Shown one piece after another: positions 19,052 to 61,336 of a stretch of DNA of 64,000 nt; the stretch's first letter is position 1, and the number at the start of each line of letters is the position of its first letter. The stretch covers positions 653,689 through 717,688 of the forward strand of contig NZ_SLXS01000003.1 in the NCBI RefSeq assembly GCF_004340785.1. The letters run 5' to 3'. The DNA is from Tumebacillus sp. BK434. Its GTDB lineage: Bacteria; Bacillota; Bacilli; Tumebacillales; Tumebacillaceae. The position numbers were made by a program, and so were the translations under genes. A model generated the notes under the pieces. The model made no database searches, was not told the origin of the DNA, and worked only from the letters and a program-made list of their open reading frames with translations.

Positions 19052-19201
19052 TCTTCCCACCGCCTGATTGATAAAATAGTAACTTCCGCCTAAAGAACAC
19101 CTGTTCCGAATTTGTTTCCGCTGTGATAGAATACAACCAACACAATTGAATATGGCTCCTCAAGGGTGATCGGCTCATCCCCTCAGAAAGGGGGTGAGAG
19201 A

Positions 19202-19321
19202 ATGTCGGCACATGAAGTGATTTCGCTCATGCTCCAGTTTGGGTTGTTCCTCGTAGCAGCGCTTTCGCTGGTCGTGACCATCATGAAACACATGTCTGAC
19301 AGTCAAAATAAAAAGAAATAG
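19202..19321 (+). CDS. Putative holin-like type I toxin, copy 1
   Basis: A 39-residue peptide: MSAHEVISLMLQFGLFLV leads into one hydrophobic helix (about residues 7-27), followed by a polar, basic tail ending QNKKK. The layout matches holin-like type I toxins (TxpA/BsrG-like, Hol_Tox family), which insert into the membrane. Its Shine-Dalgarno sequence sits inside a stable hairpin. The second copy at 41695 shares layout (single helix, KKK end) rather than close sequence. Confidence 0.8.
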   Translation: MSAHEVISLMLQFGLFLVAALSLVVTIMKHMSDSQNKKK

Positions 19322-19410
19322 ATCGCCTCTTGAGTGTTCGGAGCTCTGGCGATCTATTTCGCGTTCCAACTATGAGCCGACACCCTTCGAGGGTATCAGT
19401 TGTGTCAATC

Positions 19411-19446
19411 GACCGTAGGTGTTACAGCACCTATGGTCTTTTCTTA
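19411..19446 (+). terminator. Terminator of toxin locus 1
   Basis: GACCGTAGGTG/CACCTATGGTC stem followed by TTTTCTT. The stem is identical in the second toxin locus. Confidence 0.85.
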
Positions 19447-41616: not shown

Positions 41617-41694
41617 TAGAATACAACCAACACAATTGAATAATCTCCTCAAGGGCGGTCGGCTCATCCCCTGTGGAAAGGGGGTGAGAAGAGT

Positions 41695-41811
41695 ATGACG
41701 GAATTCCAGACGCTCACTGTGATGATTGCATTCGGTTCGTTGATTGTCGCGATCATTTTCGGTTTGCTTTCTGTGACCATCAGCATACTAAACCTGATAA
41801 AAAAGAAATAG
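41695..41811 (+). CDS. Putative holin-like type I toxin, copy 2
   Basis: A 38-residue peptide beginning MTEFQTLTVMIAFGSLIVAI, with one long hydrophobic helix and a NLIKKK end. The second member of the toxin family at 19.2 kb; only the general layout and a few residues are shared, but the flanking RNA elements are nearly identical. Confidence 0.8.
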   Translation: MTEFQTLTVMIAFGSLIVAIIFGLLSVTISILNLIKKK

Positions 41812-41891
41812 ACCTCCCTTGAGCTTGACGGCATGGAGGTCTATTTCTCAACATAAGAGCCGACACCCGTTTGGGGTATCAGTTGTGTAAC

Positions 41892-41926
41892 GACCGTAGG
41901 TGTGTCCAGCACCTATGGTCTTTTTT
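41892..41926 (+). terminator. Terminator of toxin locus 2
   Basis: GACCGTAGGTG/CACCTATGGTC stem with T6, the same stem as in locus 1. Confidence 0.88.
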
Positions 41927-53522: not shown

Positions 53523-54482
53523 TTATGCTGCGACGTCGCGCTTCGTAAACAGCGTCCACGCCAAGACATGCATGATCACAAAGTAGATCGCCAGCATCAG
53601 CACCGAGAAGCCTAAGGTCATGCCTTCGACGAGCGGCATGCCCATGAAGTACATCGAAAGGTCGAGGTTGGCGAACAGGATGTATTTGATCCACTCATAG
53701 CGCGAGAGGATCTGCACGACGATCGAGCCTGCGAACATCACGAAAATCGACAGGGAGATCGACAGGGACGACGAGCGGAACGCCGCCGAGATCATGAAGG
53801 CGATCGTCACGATCATCAGCAAGGTCACCGCTTCCAAGCCAAACGACAGCAGCACTTTGCTCGCCATGTTCATCTGATGCAAAACGCCATCCCCATCGAC
53901 ATAGATGAACGGCTGATCGACTCCGCTGAAGCCGAAGACCAGTCCGCCGAGGACAAACGAGATGACGAGCAGCACGACCGCCATCAACAGTGCGTACAGC
54001 AATGTCGAGATGTATTTGGAATACAAGATCTTCGTCCGACTCACCGGACGGATCAACAGCAATTTGATCGTGCCCCAGGTAAACTCGGTCGCCACGATGT
54101 CACCGGCGACGATGACGGTGAACAACGTGACCAGGAAGATCATGCCCGACGCCGACTCGGCAAATTTCCAAGCGGTATATTCATAAGGCGCGATATTGTG
54201 CTCAATCGCATACTCGTTCATTTTAATCTGCGCTTCCAACTGTTTGCGCGACGCTTCCGGCATCATATTGTTCGTATCGTGCAGCGCCTGGCGCATGCCA
54301 TCGGTCTGCTGCGTGATCTCCTGCTTCCAGTCGACGCCTTCGGGCGGCTTGGCGAGGAAGCGGTCGGTGATCACCAGTTGGACGATGATCGCCAGAATCA
54401 GCACGGCAAACATCGCCCAAGTGCGCGGGCGTCCGTAGATTTTCATGTTTTCATTGCGGATCAGGTTAAACAATTTGTCCAC
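53523..54482 (-). CDS. ABC-2 permease
   Basis: A 319-residue permease with about six helices; a large extracytoplasmic loop (about 45-110) follows the first helix. It overlaps the upstream ATPase gene by 17 bases and forms an exporter with it, of the bacitracin/YtrB-BcrB-like kind. Start GTG at 54482; a TTG nine bases in is an alternative. Confidence 0.85.
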   Translation of the reverse strand: MDKLFNLIRNENMKIYGRPRTWAMFAVLILAIIVQLVITDRFLAKPPEGVDWKQEITQQTDGMRQALHDTNNMMPEASRKQLEAQIKMNEYAIEHNIAPYEYTAWKFAESASGMIFLVTLFTVIVAGDIVATEFTWGTIKLLLIRPVSRTKILYSKYISTLLYALLMAVVLLVISFVLGGLVFGFSGVDQPFIYVDGDGVLHQMNMASKVLLSFGLEAVTLLMIVTIAFMISAAFRSSSLSISLSIFVMFAGSIVVQILSRYEWIKYILFANLDLSMYFMGMPLVEGMTLGFSVLMLAIYFVIMHVLAWTLFTKRDVAA

Positions 54483-55392
54483 CGCCTGTCATTTCAAGGA
54501 ATCGGTCTTCCAGCGACTTGTTCTGCGTGCGGATGCCGTACACGTTTACACCCGCCTGCACGAGGTGGCGGTTGACGTCGGCGATCTGCTCGCGGGTCAA
54601 AGCCAGCTCCAGCCCGTCCGCCTGCACGGTGATCGCCGCCTCGCTGACGACCAGCTCCAGCGTTTTCGCCGCCTCTTCCGGACGGTCGACCTCGAAGCGG
54701 ACGAGCGTCTGCTCCGCGGCGCCGACCATCTCGCGCACCGGCTTCACGTCGATCAGCTTGCCGTTCTGAATGACGGCGATGCGGTCGCACATCAGCTCCA
54801 TCTCCGCCAGCAGGTGCGAGGAGACGATGACCGACAATCCTTCCTGCTTGGCGAGCATCCGCAGATGGTCGCGCAGCTCGCGGATGCCGGCCGGGTCGAG
54901 CCCGTTGGTCGGCTCGTCGAGGATCAGCACGGTCGGCTTGTGCAGCAGCGCCTGTGCCAGCCCGAGGCGTTGGCGCATCCCCAGCGAATAGGTCTTCACT
55001 TTGTCGTTGATGCGGTTTTCAAGGCCGACGAGCTTGATCACTTCGTCGATCCGCCCTGGCGCCACATTTTTGTTCATCCGCGCAAAATGCACGAGGTTGT
55101 CATAGCCGGAGAGAAACTTGTACATCTCCGGGTTCTCGACGATCGCGCCGACTTCGGTCATCGCCGCTTCGAACTCTTTTTCCACGTCCTTGCCGTTGAT
55201 CAGCACTTGGCCTTCGGTGATTTTCATCAGACCGACGATCATCCGGATCGTCGTCGTTTTGCCGGCCCCGTTCGGTCCGAGGAATCCGAACACTTCGCCG
55301 CGCGGAATGTCAAACGTCAGCCCTTCGACGAGCGTTTTCTTGCCGATCTTCTTCGTTAAGTTGCGAATCTGCACAACTGGTGTCTGTGACAT
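54466..55392 (-). CDS. ABC ATPase of a two-gene exporter
   Basis: A 308-residue ABC ATPase with Walker A GPNGAGKTTTIRMI, signature SLGMRQRLGLAQAL, Walker B VLILDEPTNGLDPAG and a C-terminal extension. It resembles BcrA/NatA-type resistance exporters. ATG follows GGAGGGCC. Confidence 0.92.
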   Translation of the reverse strand: MSQTPVVQIRNLTKKIGKKTLVEGLTFDIPRGEVFGFLGPNGAGKTTTIRMIVGLMKITEGQVLINGKDVEKEFEAAMTEVGAIVENPEMYKFLSGYDNLVHFARMNKNVAPGRIDEVIKLVGLENRINDKVKTYSLGMRQRLGLAQALLHKPTVLILDEPTNGLDPAGIRELRDHLRMLAKQEGLSVIVSSHLLAEMELMCDRIAVIQNGKLIDVKPVREMVGAAEQTLVRFEVDRPEEAAKTLELVVSEAAITVQADGLELALTREQIADVNRHLVQAGVNVYGIRTQNKSLEDRFLEMTGGGQIV

Positions 55393-55516: not shown

Positions 55517-56311
55517 TTACATCCGAACGCTCATCATGTTGCCGGAACCGTACCGTCTCAGCCCCCGGTAAAAGAACCATGTGCCGCCCACCGTCAGCAG
55601 GATCGCCACGCCTAGCGCCGTCAAGGTGAACGTCCAGTTCAGATCGCGCAGGAACCCGACCGGCAGATAGGAGATGAACCCGGCCGGAATCACCGTGAAC
55701 AGCACCATCCGCCCGAGGCCCCGGAAGATGTCGGTCGGGTAGGTGGCAAACGTGATGAAGGTGATGAAGAACTGGTTCGCCAAGCCTTCCGCATTGCCGA
55801 TGTAAAAGGCCAGCGACTGTGCGATCACCATAAAAAAGGTGAAGATCAGCATCGCGACGAGCAGCGCCACTGCAAATTTCACGAGGCCTACGAAACTCAG
55901 CTCCCCAAACAGCCCATACAAGATCAGCCCGAACAAAATGTCCCCGATCGCCGCGATCTGCATCCGCGAGATCAACACGTGCAGGAGCACCGGCTTCGGC
56001 TGGGCCAGATAGGTGTCGAGCTGCCCGGTGGCGATGATGTTGGCCAGGCGGTACACGTTGCCGAACAGCGTCGCCGACAGCCCGTATCCGGCCGCCGAGA
56101 CGGCCCACATCATCATCACGTCCTGGAAGCTCCAGCCGTTCATGATCGGGAAGGAGGTGAAATAAACGCCCCAGAAGAAGATCCAGACCGTGTTGTTGAT
56201 CATCATCATCCCGACCTGCATCAGAAAGGACGTGCGAAACTCCATCGCCCCCGCCAGGTTCAGCTTCCAGCAGGTGAGCATAAAACGCCAATACTTAGCC
56301 GCCGTTGACAT
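55517..56311 (-). CDS. ABC-2 permease 2 of a three-gene exporter
   Basis: A 264-residue permease with six hydrophobic helices. Its start overlaps the end of the first permease by 17 bases. With the upstream permease and ATPase it forms a heterodimeric ABC-2 exporter. Reads in the 55517-56311 frame; an overlapping frame was rejected. Confidence 0.85.
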   Translation of the reverse strand: MSTAAKYWRFMLTCWKLNLAGAMEFRTSFLMQVGMMMINNTVWIFFWGVYFTSFPIMNGWSFQDVMMMWAVSAAGYGLSATLFGNVYRLANIIATGQLDTYLAQPKPVLLHVLISRMQIAAIGDILFGLILYGLFGELSFVGLVKFAVALLVAMLIFTFFMVIAQSLAFYIGNAEGLANQFFITFITFATYPTDIFRGLGRMVLFTVIPAGFISYLPVGFLRDLNWTFTLTALGVAILLTVGGTWFFYRGLRRYGSGNMMSVRM

Positions 56312-57131
56312 TGAGCTTTTTCACTCCTTTCGCATACATTACCGTCAGGATCAGGGCGATCAGCAGCGCCCACAGCGCCTGAATGCCGATCATGTTCAGC
56401 ATCGCCCACGCGTCAAACTGCACCGCCGTCTTCGCCGCAAAATAGACGATCGCCTGAAAGGGCAGGAACTCGCAGACTCTCTGCAGCGTGTCGGGCATCA
56501 TCTCCAGCGGTATCATCATCCCGCCGATCGTAAACAGCAGCTTGTTGTAGACAAAATCGATGCCGCGCACCTCTTCCACCCACAGCGCGCAGAGCCCGAC
56601 CAGCATCGTGATCAGGTAATGCAGCGTGTACGAGCCGATCATCATGATCAAAAAGCCCAGCCAGCCCAATCCAAAATCGGGCCAGCCGAACAGCAGGAGC
56701 CCGAGCAGCCCGCCGATGACGAGGTTGATCGCCACCCGCACCAGCGCTTCACCCATGTAAGAGGCATAATGGAACAGCAGGTAGTTCATCGGCCGGGTCA
56801 GCTGGTAGCCGATGTCGCCTTTCAATACTTCTTCTTCGACTTTCAAGGACACTTTCGGCGCGGCGAGCACAAACGCTTCGGCGAAGATCAGGTACCAGAT
56901 GATCTGTTCAAACGTGTACCCGGCGATGCGTGTGGTGCCAACGCTGTCATAGGTGACGCTCCAGAGCTGGATAAACACATATAAGATGACGATCAGAAAC
57001 AGCGAGCGAATCATAAAATCGTAGATGTACGCCAGATTGTTGCGAATGGTGATCGAGCCGACCGCCGTGTACTTGGCCAGCTTCAAGGCCAGAGAGGACA
57101 CGCGGGGCTCACGCGTGAGATGATGCTGCAT
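56295..57131 (-). CDS. ABC-2 permease 1 of a three-gene exporter
   Basis: A 278-residue permease with six helices. ATG at 57131 follows GAGGAGGCGAGGAG; it overlaps the ATPase gene by 23 bases. Its long hydrophobic segments and GYQLTRPMNYLLFH resemble the ABC-2 protein family used in lantibiotic/daunorubicin-type export. Confidence 0.87.
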   Translation of the reverse strand: MQHHLTREPRVSSLALKLAKYTAVGSITIRNNLAYIYDFMIRSLFLIVILYVFIQLWSVTYDSVGTTRIAGYTFEQIIWYLIFAEAFVLAAPKVSLKVEEEVLKGDIGYQLTRPMNYLLFHYASYMGEALVRVAINLVIGGLLGLLLFGWPDFGLGWLGFLIMMIGSYTLHYLITMLVGLCALWVEEVRGIDFVYNKLLFTIGGMMIPLEMMPDTLQRVCEFLPFQAIVYFAAKTAVQFDAWAMLNMIGIQALWALLIALILTVMYAKGVKKLNVNGG

Positions 57132-58128
57132 CGCTCCTCGCCTCCTCTTGGCCCGTGCGGGCATAGATATGGGTGATGATCTCTTCCATCGGCGGGTCTT
57201 CGATCGTCACGTCGACCAGGCGGTGGTTGTTGACGATGTAGGCGAGCACCGCTTCGATCGTCGTCTGCGCCGTATCGACCGACAGACGCAACCCGCTGCC
57301 CTTTTGCTTGACGATCTCCACGCCTTGCACGTGGAACTGCTCCGGCGCTTCGGCCAGCTTCAGCTTGATCGTTTTATAAGTTAAGAAGTCCCGTTTCATG
57401 TTCGAGACGGTGTCGTCGAGAATGATCTGGCCGTGGTTGATCACGATCGCCCGCTTGCAGAGCTGCTCGATGTCGCCGGCGTCATGCGAGGTGAGGAACA
57501 AGGTGGTGCCTTCCTCTTTGTTCATCTCGCGGATCAGTTCGCGGATCTTGTGTTTGACGACGACGTCGAGCCCGATCGTCGGCTCGTCGAGAAAAACGAT
57601 CTGCGGGCGGTGCAGGAGCGCGGCGGCGATCTCGCAGCGCATGCGCTCGCCAAGCGACAGTTTGCGCACGGCGGTGTGCAGGTACGGCCCGAGCTCGAAG
57701 CACTCGATCAGGTCGTCGCGGCGCTTTTTGAAATCGTGTAGCCCGACTTCGTAGATCCGCCCCATCAGCTCAAACGTGTCGAGCGGCGGCAGGTGATACC
57801 AGAGCTGCGATTTTTGCCCGAAGACGGAGCCGATGTGAAACGCCAGCTTGTGCCGCTCCGTCCACGGACAGAAGCCGAGCACCGCCGCCTCGCCGGCGGA
57901 CGGATGCAAGATGCCGGTCAGCATTTTGATCGTCGTCGATTTGCCGGCTCCGTTCGGCCCGAGAAAAGCCAGCACTTCGCCTTGCTCCACCGTAAAGTCG
58001 ATCGGTTTGACCGCCACCTTTTCACTGACGGTCGGGTTGAACAACCCTTTGACACTGCCCATAAATCCTGCCTGCTTGTGTTTCATCGTGAATGATTTCG
58101 TCAATCCTTGTACACGTATCGCGGACAT
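57109..58128 (-). CDS. ABC ATPase of a three-gene exporter
   Basis: A 339-residue ABC ATPase. Walker A GPNGAGKSTTIKMLTG; signature LSLGERMRCEIAAALL; Walker B IVFLDEPTIGLD; H-loop LTSHD. The long C-terminal region (about 250-339) is like DrrA. ATG at 58128 follows GGGGGA. The ykkC-like leader lies upstream, so the operon may be ligand-controlled. Confidence 0.93.
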   Translation of the reverse strand: MSAIRVQGLTKSFTMKHKQAGFMGSVKGLFNPTVSEKVAVKPIDFTVEQGEVLAFLGPNGAGKSTTIKMLTGILHPSAGEAAVLGFCPWTERHKLAFHIGSVFGQKSQLWYHLPPLDTFELMGRIYEVGLHDFKKRRDDLIECFELGPYLHTAVRKLSLGERMRCEIAAALLHRPQIVFLDEPTIGLDVVVKHKIRELIREMNKEEGTTLFLTSHDAGDIEQLCKRAIVINHGQIILDDTVSNMKRDFLTYKTIKLKLAEAPEQFHVQGVEIVKQKGSGLRLSVDTAQTTIEAVLAYIVNNHRLVDVTIEDPPMEEIITHIYARTGQEEARSDAASSHA

Positions 58129-58180
58129 CTGCACGTTCCCCCTTTACAGTCAATCTTCGGAATCCCGCTCGGAAAAACAG

Positions 58181-58325
58181 AAAAGACCCGCAGCAAGTTC
58201 CCGTGTTGCTGGAACTTGCCGCAGGTCTTTTATCCCCACGGTGTAACGCATCTCCGATGCGCTCGGCCCCGCTTGGTTCGATCCGGTCTCCCGTCGGCTC
58301 CCTAGAGGCCCTTCCACTTGTTCCC
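58181..58325 (-). promoter_or_regulatory. ykkC-like riboswitch and terminator before the ABC exporter
   Basis: On the minus strand the leader reads GGCCTCTAGGG..., then a hairpin region, then GCGCATCGGAGATGCGT, TTACACCG (58246-58239) and GGGGATAAAAGACC (58237-58224), followed by a terminator stem AAGACCTGCGGCAAGTTCC/GGAACTTGCTGCGGGTCTT with T-run (58231-58181). The ACACCG...GGGAUAAAAG element is the signature of the ykkC superfamily (guanidine-I, ppGpp, PRPP and related). The terminator overlaps the aptamer's 3' part, as in transcriptional switches. GGGAGCCG and ATCGAACC differ from the usual GGGUUCCG and ACUGGUCC, so the subclass is unclear. Confidence 0.65.
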
Positions 58326-58446
58326 TGTATCTTAGCATGTGGACATGTCCTTTGACAAGAGACATTTTCACAAAATTTGGGTGAGATCGTATTGTTTGCA
58401 TCTTTTCTCCTTTATAATGGAAAGAAAGTGAATCGGGAGGGATGGC

Positions 58447-60661: not shown

Positions 60662-61336
60662 TTAGGCTTCCGCTTCCAACTGCGGCTTGTGGCGGGAGGT
60701 CCACCATTTGCCGAAGCCGACGACGAGCAAGGTCGTGAACGCCGGGATCAGGTAGTGCAGGAAATCGGCCGTGAAGATCGGTGCGAGCAGCTTGTCATCG
60801 ATCAGCATGTTGCCGGCCGTCCAGCCCAGCACCCCGGCCCCGAGGTAGATCAGGATCGGGAAGCGGTTGATCAGCTTGAGGATGACGGTCGAGCCCCAGA
60901 CGATGATCGGGATCGAGATCGCCAGGCCGATCAGGACGAGCGAGATATGTTCTTTCCCCGCAGCTGCCACAGCGAAGATGTTGTCGAGCGACAGCACGAG
61001 GTCCGCCATGATGATCGTGCGGATCGCCGCGCCAAAGGTGTTGCCTTCTTTGATGTTGGCCTCTTCATCGGTGTTGTCGATGAGCAGCTTGATCGCCACC
61101 CAGAGCAGGAACACGCCGCCGATCGCTTGCAAGAGCGGCACTTTCAAGAGATACACCGCCACGACGGTCAGCGACACGCGCAGCCCGACCGCACCGAAGG
61201 TGCCCCAGAAGATGGCGCGCTTGCGCTGCGCTTCCGGCAGCCGGCGGGAGGCAAGGGCGATCACCATTGCGTTGTCACCCGAAACGACCAGGTCGATGAT
61301 AATGATAGAAATCAGAGCCCACAGATACTCAAACAC
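60662..61336 (-). CDS. TerC-family membrane protein (YjbE-like)
   Basis: A 224-residue TerC/YjbE protein with about seven helices and metal-binding acidic residues within membrane segments: DLVVSGDNAMVIALAS and ADLVLSLDNIFAVAA. YjbE-like proteins export Mn2+ or supply it to exported enzymes. It is preceded by a yybP-ykoY manganese riboswitch. GTG start after AAAGGAGCG. Confidence 0.9.
   Translation of the reverse strand: MFEYLWALISIIIIDLVVSGDNAMVIALASRRLPEAQRKRAIFWGTFGAVGLRVSLTVVAVYLLKVPLLQAIGGVFLLWVAIKLLIDNTDEEANIKEGNTFGAAIRTIIMADLVLSLDNIFAVAAAGKEHISLVLIGLAISIPIIVWGSTVILKLINRFPILIYLGAGVLGWTAGNMLIDDKLLAPIFTADFLHYLIPAFTTLLVVGFGKWWTSRHKPQLEAEA

Follow-up and report, generated by a model that had tools for sequence, protein, structure and literature searches.

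The leader of a three-gene ABC exporter operon in Tumebacillus sp. BK434, carried on the minus strand of the 64,000-nt stretch of DNA analysed here (the window), is a real riboswitch of the ykkC superfamily. It probably acts as a transcriptional ON switch for (p)ppGpp and belongs to the subtype 2a lineage, in a form with a rebuilt P1a/P1b junction and a short linker; the ligand and the direction of switching are what we infer. The pairs of the aptamer covary, its 3' part overlaps an intrinsic terminator, the operon that follows is conserved, and the leader is related in sequence to the 2a-type leaders of natA genes.

Leader architecture and downstream operon

The aptamer, 107 nt long (58211-58317, minus strand), was delimited by covariance models and covariation as ykkC subtype 2a-like, with helices P0, P1, P1a, P1b, P2 and P3. 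Reading from 58317 to 58211, we recovered the motifs of the first-pass annotation in the order it had given: CUAGGG, a hairpin, GAUCGAACC, a hairpin (P2), UUACACCG and GGGGAUAAAAGACC. The 5' strand of P0, GGAA (58312-58315), has its partner UUCC at 58214-58211; the remodelled P1a/P1b 5' strand GGGAGCCGA (58294-58302) and the remodelled 3' strand UCGAACC (58275-58281; canonical CUGGUCC) pair GG with CC and CGA with UCG; and UACACCGUGGGGAUAAAAGACCU (58223-58245) comprises C75-A76-C77-C78 and P3 with its loop, all on the minus strand. In the minimum free energy (MFE) fold of the isolated aptamer stretch P0, P1, P1a, P1b and P2 are present, as is P3, extended into the tail. Fold energy is weak evidence for the aptamer alone (z -1.4; 21 of 200 shuffles equally good) and stands at z -4.4 for the whole leader. 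When the plus strand is folded, the terminator palindrome dominates the region (z -1.9; 11 of 200 shuffles equally good), and this strand was rejected as the one carrying the leader.

An intrinsic terminator hairpin followed by a U tract (58181-58231, minus strand) has a predicted energy of -35.4 kcal/mol (z -9.0; none of 200 shuffles equally stable). Its 21-bp stem takes its 5' arm from the 3' part of the aptamer (AAAAGACCUGCGGCAAGUUCC), just as had been claimed: these 21 nt (58231-58211) comprise the 3' strand of P3, the linker and the 3' strand of P0. A simple terminator scan listed nothing at the leader, because it allows loops of 3-8 nt and the loop of this hairpin has 9 nt. The aptamer/terminator overlap recurs in 58 of the 59 loci described below, the 59th being cut by the locus end (control windows passing, 18 of 295). 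A mir-499 match in Rfam (24.9 bits, E up to 10) lies over the terminator hairpin and was discarded. At L007 (about 1409-1500) the leader of a natA orthologue keeps the P0 5' strand and the terminator, most of the aptamer being lost; it is a natural aptamer deletion.

Upstream of the aptamer a sigma-70-type promoter is predicted at 58329-58358 (minus strand; TTGTCA-18-TAAGAT), with 9 of 12 consensus matches and a TG before the second hexamer; the consensus scan of both strands of the region gave 2 sites, against 0.3 in shuffles. A perfect palindrome, GGACATGTCC (58341-58350), sits between the -35 and -10 of this promoter and is a possible operator; it is also found in L004 and, in part, in L008.

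The three-gene ABC exporter reported downstream proved to consist of a NatA-type ATPase and two ABC2_membrane_6 permeases, all on the minus strand. natA (57109-58134; likely start ATG at 58128) matches PF00005 and is drrA-like below the curated cut-off, and the permeases match PF06182 with E 2.7e-13 (permease 1, 56295-57164) and E 2.2e-29 (permease 2, 55517-56311). Directly downstream lies a second ABC-2 ATPase/permease pair (53523-55392, minus strand); genes resembling it also follow in L078, and the permease only in L042. The window holds other RNA elements as well. A manganese (yybP-ykoY) riboswitch at 61527-61359 (minus strand; 55.3 bits, Rfam cut-off 45) precedes an apparent TerC-type membrane protein, read by eye (60662-61336, minus strand), and two BsrG matches (RF01412) on the plus strand, at 19139-19435 and 41629-41917 (91.6 and 88.5 bits, cut-off 55), suggest two type I toxin-antitoxin loci.

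Distribution, covariation and gene context

Scanning genome contigs with one pattern gave 54 more places, spread over Paenibacillus, Cohnella, Tumebacillus and two Paenibacillaceae MAGs, against about 2 chance matches expected by our own arithmetic. Five copies from the Tumebacillus sp. BK434 genome and relatives bring these to 59 loci, among which three places are counted twice (L004/L036, L006/L042 and L008/L078); the CTAGGG, CGAACC, AG, ACACC and GGGAT columns are invariant in the scan loci by construction. No description of the variant was found in the literature searched, a search with most subscription papers outside its scope.

We aligned 48 non-redundant copies (more than 4 edits apart), each row ending at the GTTCC that first follows the match; 58 of the 59 loci have this GTTCC. 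Over 25 pairs 90.5% of cells pair and 13 pairs are changed on both sides; the covariation score is 0.247, compared with 0.124 in shuffles that ignore kinship (0 of 500 as high), and sliding the pairing partners abolishes the signal. Every copy forms all four P0 pairs, which lie outside the scan pattern, and 7 of the 48 have a G-U at one of them. Because P0, P1a and most of P3 are nearly invariant, covariation offers no test of these helices. The arrangement expected of subtype 2a, a P1-P2-P3 scaffold with a P0 formed from the ends, is seen both in pairing and covariation over the 48 copies and in the MFE fold.

Downstream of the leader a NatA match was obtained at 54 of the 59 loci; that of L069 lies about 0.9 kb away and that of L073 is split in two. 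The downstream DNA of L054 and L082 is too short for a gene-context call. In L041 the start of natA is fused to a permease; L041 and L202 are eroded natA operons with internal deletions that retain the riboswitch, which in L202 still matches the 2a model described below. In T. flagellatus (L046/L201) the gene behind the variant aptamer is of MFS efflux type, and running the variant model on 26 related genomes reached both L202 and a second MFS case (L204 in G003, same family), whose protein matches multidrug-efflux MFS families below their cut-offs. Tails of these MFS-linked copies are one nt shorter and end in GAAAGUUCC. In T. lacus (L080/L203) the aptamer precedes a GNAT acetyltransferase (the L203 protein matches GNAT families), after which comes a tryptophan 2,3-dioxygenase-like gene, named by eye. 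The MFS and GNAT contexts of the Tumebacillus copies are absent among our 2a comparators, and no purine genes were seen downstream across the 59 loci. According to the available text of PMC5912903, natA transporters and glutamate synthase are gene contexts of subtype 2a (ppGpp), and the natA operon falls within the 2a set of BCAA, glutamate synthase and natA genes.

Scoring against ykkC subtypes

At the Rfam gathering threshold the leader is without a match, and the guanidine-I model (RF00442) aligns to it end to end with 22.9 bits against a cut-off of 63 (E up to 10). Six loci with 2a-, 2b-, 2c-type or variant leaders have no ykkC-family match at this threshold while some other PRPP-type leaders and one ilvE leader exceed the guanidine-I cut-off, so that Rfam is a poor guide here. 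Comparators were drawn from 398 genomes. The pattern ACACCGTRGGNAKARAAGACC, found in the UACACCGUGGGGAUAAAAGACCU region of the window, matched in 25 of these, Tumebacillus sp. BK434 included, and also occurs in leaders of BCAA, liv, opp/nik-type permease and natA genes. Behind these leaders lie ilvE in 10 cases (by eye; L166 checked), acetolactate synthase (L173 and L176 checked), branched-chain amino acid binding proteins (L160 and L177, checked; L178 and L179, by eye), an oligopeptide/nickel-type permease (L174), a sodium symporter (L180), natA in three (L181 checked), and a ketol-acid reductoisomerase gene that follows a short ORF with a sub-threshold ACT-like match (L175); in the remainder the genes are of membrane type or unclear (L161 without family; L162 and L184 unassigned). 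The 2a comparators were chosen by ACACCGT..GACC and then by CTAGGGTTCC and CCRAGCG, which 17 of the 25 loci (L160-L184) passed, 16 distinct leaders being aligned; the intermediate L175 is among the 8 that failed. A PRPP-type pattern matched in 67 of the 398 genomes and 30 loci were taken. Since the recognisable genes at these 30 are purine-type (by eye), the set served as 2b comparator, with 19 of 27 distinct leaders aligned and 8, mostly with long insertions, left out. A purine riboswitch lies just upstream of the PRPP-type leader L108 and a T-box at the ilvE locus L167, in line with these classes.

From these sets we built a 2a model (R1; 16 pattern-chosen 2a-type leaders, no variant copy included) and a PRPP model (R2; 19 PRPP-type leaders). 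With R1 the window copy scores 63.6 bits (E 4.8e-14 by a rough calibration), and no other place in the 64-kb window matches at E up to 10; it scores 49.6 bits with R2, and 107.4 bits with a variant model (R3) whose training set included it. The first-pass annotation had called for a covariance-model search and named the absence of any score, together with that of a ligand-dependent change, as its refutation; the scores are 63.6 (2a), 49.6 (PRPP) and, below the cut-off, 22.9 bits (guanidine-I). Its call of a divergent ykkC-superfamily riboswitch closer to ppGpp/PRPP than to guanidine-I was right.

Thirty-five variant sources from the 59 loci were scored with both models: 31 are higher with R1 and four (L035, L056, L058 and L069) with R2, the R1-R2 differences running from -4.9 to +20.0 with a median of +8.2, and +14 for the window. 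The 2a-type leaders L181 and L167 reach 104 and 97 bits with R1 and 83.9 and 86.7 with R2; the PRPP-type L108, L111 and L114 reach 68.7-73.8 bits with R1, above the window copy, and 101-109 with R2; and the guanidine-I-type L001 and L117-L119 (86-91 bits in the Rfam model) reach 29-48 bits with R1. Judged by these canonical scores the window copy is weaker than canonical members on both models, and its difference of +14 resembles 2a. The difference is no clean test of subtype, because two gltB-like leaders favour R2 despite their published 2a context (L193 and L194, 80.3 and 82.5 with R2 against 71.7 and 66.0 with R1); the ilvE-like L200 ties at 75.0 against 74.4.

A rebuilt junction and a short linker

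The strand changes at P1a/P1b that had first drawn attention to this leader are genuine and amount to a rebuilt junction; in addition, the 3' linker that joins P3 to P0 has lost 2-3 nt. Canonical GGGUUCCG / CUGGUCC becomes GGGAKCCG(A) / (U)CGAACC in the variant. The usual strands GGGUUCCG / UGGUCC are conserved in most 2a members and were not taken as defining; in their place GGGA and CGAACC stand in 48 of 48 copies, CGAACC by construction. The base after CUAGGG is A in all 48, outside the scan pattern, whereas the 2a and 2b comparators, for which UU was a selection criterion, have U. The canonical P1a/P1b register was rejected for the variant alignment, where columns 21 and 65 never pair (48 of 48). 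With the register shifted, pair 24-62 occurs as A-U, G-C, C-G and U-A, with both sides changed in 11 of 48 copies and the pair unformed in 14.

Forms between the two states occur in other leaders. A half-change, CUAGGGAUCC with GGACC, is found before ilvC in L175 and before the gltB-like genes of L193 and L194 (two same-order genomes; GATase_2 was found in the L193 gene), and all three leaders have GGGAUCC. Variation of the 3' strand is also seen among the 16 2a-type leaders (GGACC in 3, GUGACC in 2, GCGACC in 1), and a likewise shortened linker is seen in L200, from a same-order genome. On this sequence evidence, the rebuilding appears to have taken place inside the 2a lineage. The P3 loop docks into the P1a/P1b junction of the ykkC fold (PMC6031431).

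The window NatA is 54% identical to NatA of L181, from a genome of the same phylum and another class. A tree of 51 NatA proteins separates the variant set (24 proteins) and L181-L183 from 24 paralogues with branch support 100/99; L007, despite having lost most of its aptamer, is counted there with the riboswitch group, and the tree program gave a warning that long branches meet within the paralogue part. The natA genes of L181-L183 carry ordinary 2a-type leaders, and the variant model has no match at the loci of the 24 paralogues. For a Clostridiales natA aptamer a preference of about tenfold for pppGpp over ppGpp is reported in the available text of PMC12373219.

Ligand-pocket positions

In the available text of PMC6031431, position 49 is A in guanidine-I aptamers and a pyrimidine in 2a and 2b, C75 pairs with the guanine of ppGpp, G48, C77, A5, G6, G104 and G105 help to hold the phosphates, and G96 is a hallmark of PRPP aptamers that 2a members do not conserve; a PRPP aptamer with G96 changed to A preferred ppGpp. 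We assigned these contacts in the variant by position from the published structures, so that they are putative. C49 is present in 48 of 48 copies, as in 2a and unlike the A of guanidine-I, A5 and G6 are present in 48 of 48 and GACC in 47 of 48, all outside the scan pattern. G48, C75 and C77 are also present, in columns that the scan pattern fixes, although C75 was seen independently in the window copy, where it is available for a ligand guanine as in 2a. Judged by sequence position, then, most residues reported to contact ppGpp are kept in the variant. Position 104, a reported ligand contact as G, is A both in the variant and in the three related natA leaders L181-L183.

Position 96, counted from P3, is T in 20, C in 18, G in 8 and a gap in 2 of the 48 variants, compared with A in 7, C in 6 and G in 3 of the 16 2a-type leaders and G in 19 of 19 PRPP-type leaders; over the variant set G looks unconserved here, as in 2a and unlike the PRPP-type leaders, but the shorter linker makes the alignment at this position uncertain, and two columns on G stands in 34 of 48. 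The window copy itself has G96, which, on the published structures, could compete with the ppGpp guanine for C75.

Proposed switching and alternative readings

In the ligand-free state the downstream arm would pair with the aptamer's 3' part (the 3' strands of P3 and P0 and the linker between them), and the terminator so formed would keep the natA-permease-permease operon off. On starvation (p)ppGpp would rise and occupy a site between P3 and P0, where C75 would pair with the guanine while G48/C77 and A5/G6/G105 would hold the pyrophosphates; with P3 and P0 held together the terminator would be blocked and the exporter switched on. Ligand-driven antitermination of this ON type has been published for 2a and 2b (PMC6031431). 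The Tumebacillus sp. BK434 genome encodes three RelA_SpoT-domain proteins, and (p)ppGpp is therefore expected in the cell.

The first-pass annotation had taken an exporter under such a variant to point to a ligand that might lie outside the known ones. The remodelled aptamer might on that account sense neither (p)ppGpp nor PRPP but another ligand, perhaps a toxic compound handled by the exporter, MFS pump or acetyltransferase. Several features can be read that way: the 48 copies from Paenibacillus, Cohnella and Tumebacillus have in common the P1a/P1b change (CGAACC by construction) and the short linker, their target genes code for exporters, an MFS efflux-type protein or a GNAT enzyme, and position 104 is A. 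Such a ligand is nonetheless unlikely and the original claim is not supported: natA is a listed 2a context (PMC5912903), outside the class the genes for related NatA proteins are preceded by ordinary 2a-type leaders with the same A at 104, and the claim is weakened further by half-change leaders before gltB-like and ilvC genes and by the retention of C49, A5 and G6 with G48, C75 and C77 present. A PRPP riboswitch (ykkC subtype 2b) is very unlikely. The window copy does score 49.6 bits with the PRPP model, shares ACACC and has G96, and 4 of 35 variants score higher with that model, but G96 occurs in only 8 of 48 copies, P0 is GGAA/UUCC rather than GAAA/UUUC and P3 has GACC rather than GCCC (a comparator difference that is partly due to selection), purine genes are missing downstream among the 59 loci, and a separate PRPP-type leader stands before a purE-like gene in the same genome.

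Sensing of guanidine, for which the end-to-end alignment with RF00442 might speak, is extremely unlikely given a score of 22.9 bits against the cut-off of 63, C49 in 48 of 48 copies, ACACC in place of ACACG, and another locus of the genome, before an SMR-like pair, that matches guanidine-I strongly (85.8 bits). That the leader is an ordinary attenuator or terminator with no ligand-binding aptamer would fit the strong terminator and its persistence in L007, where most of the aptamer is lost; we hold it to be exceedingly improbable, as P1, P2 and pair 24-62 covary outside the terminator and the leader matches riboswitch models. A further idea, rather unlikely in our view, is that the rebuilt P3-docking module and short linker changed ligand choice, to pGpp, to pppGpp exclusively or to a ligand outside the known ykkC set, which would make the variant a further ligand class on the ykkC scaffold, tied to efflux (ABC exporter, MFS pump and GNAT enzyme).

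If the (p)ppGpp reading of the leader is correct, and if the variant is not already contained in published 2a alignments, Paenibacillaceae and Tumebacillus would possess (p)ppGpp-type riboswitches of a variant form. There would then be a link from the stringent response to an ABC exporter, and a few species would have one to an MFS pump and an acetyltransferase as well. The ykkC fold would also be shown to tolerate a rebuilt P1a/P1b junction.

Comparison with known systems

The variant shares with the 2a natA form of L181-L183 the P0-P1-P2-P3 layout, the GGAAG...GUUCC ends, CCRAGCG, ACACCGURGG.AKAAAAGACC, a natA relative downstream and a common tail, GGCAAGUUCC in L181 and L183 or GGAAAGUUCC in L182. 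It differs from that form in the P1a/P1b strands and the linker described above, and in having been found here in Paenibacillaceae and Tumebacillus, whereas L181-L183 belong to another class of the phylum. The 2b PRPP riboswitch resembles it in P0, overall architecture and ACACC core, and in the G96 of 8 of 48 variants including the window copy, but has G96 in 19 of 19 leaders, mostly GAAA/UUUC in P0, GCCC in P3 and purine-type genes (by eye); the PRPP-type leader of the Tumebacillus sp. BK434 genome (L002/L087), before its purE-like gene (by eye), scores 89.1 bits with R2. Guanidine-I aptamers (RF00442) have the same P1-P2-P3 scaffold with CUAGGG and GGGAUAAAAG elements, and differ in ACACG and in their SMR-like genes, as in L001, the 85.8-bit copy of the same genome (SMR-like pair named by eye); they have A at position 49 and no P0 (PMC6031431). 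The 2c NDP riboswitches (L157 and L158) share the scaffold with CUAGGG and the 3' tail, and differ in a GCACC core, in GGUAUAAAAGGCC or GGCAUAAAAGGCC, and in a NUDIX context (by eye).
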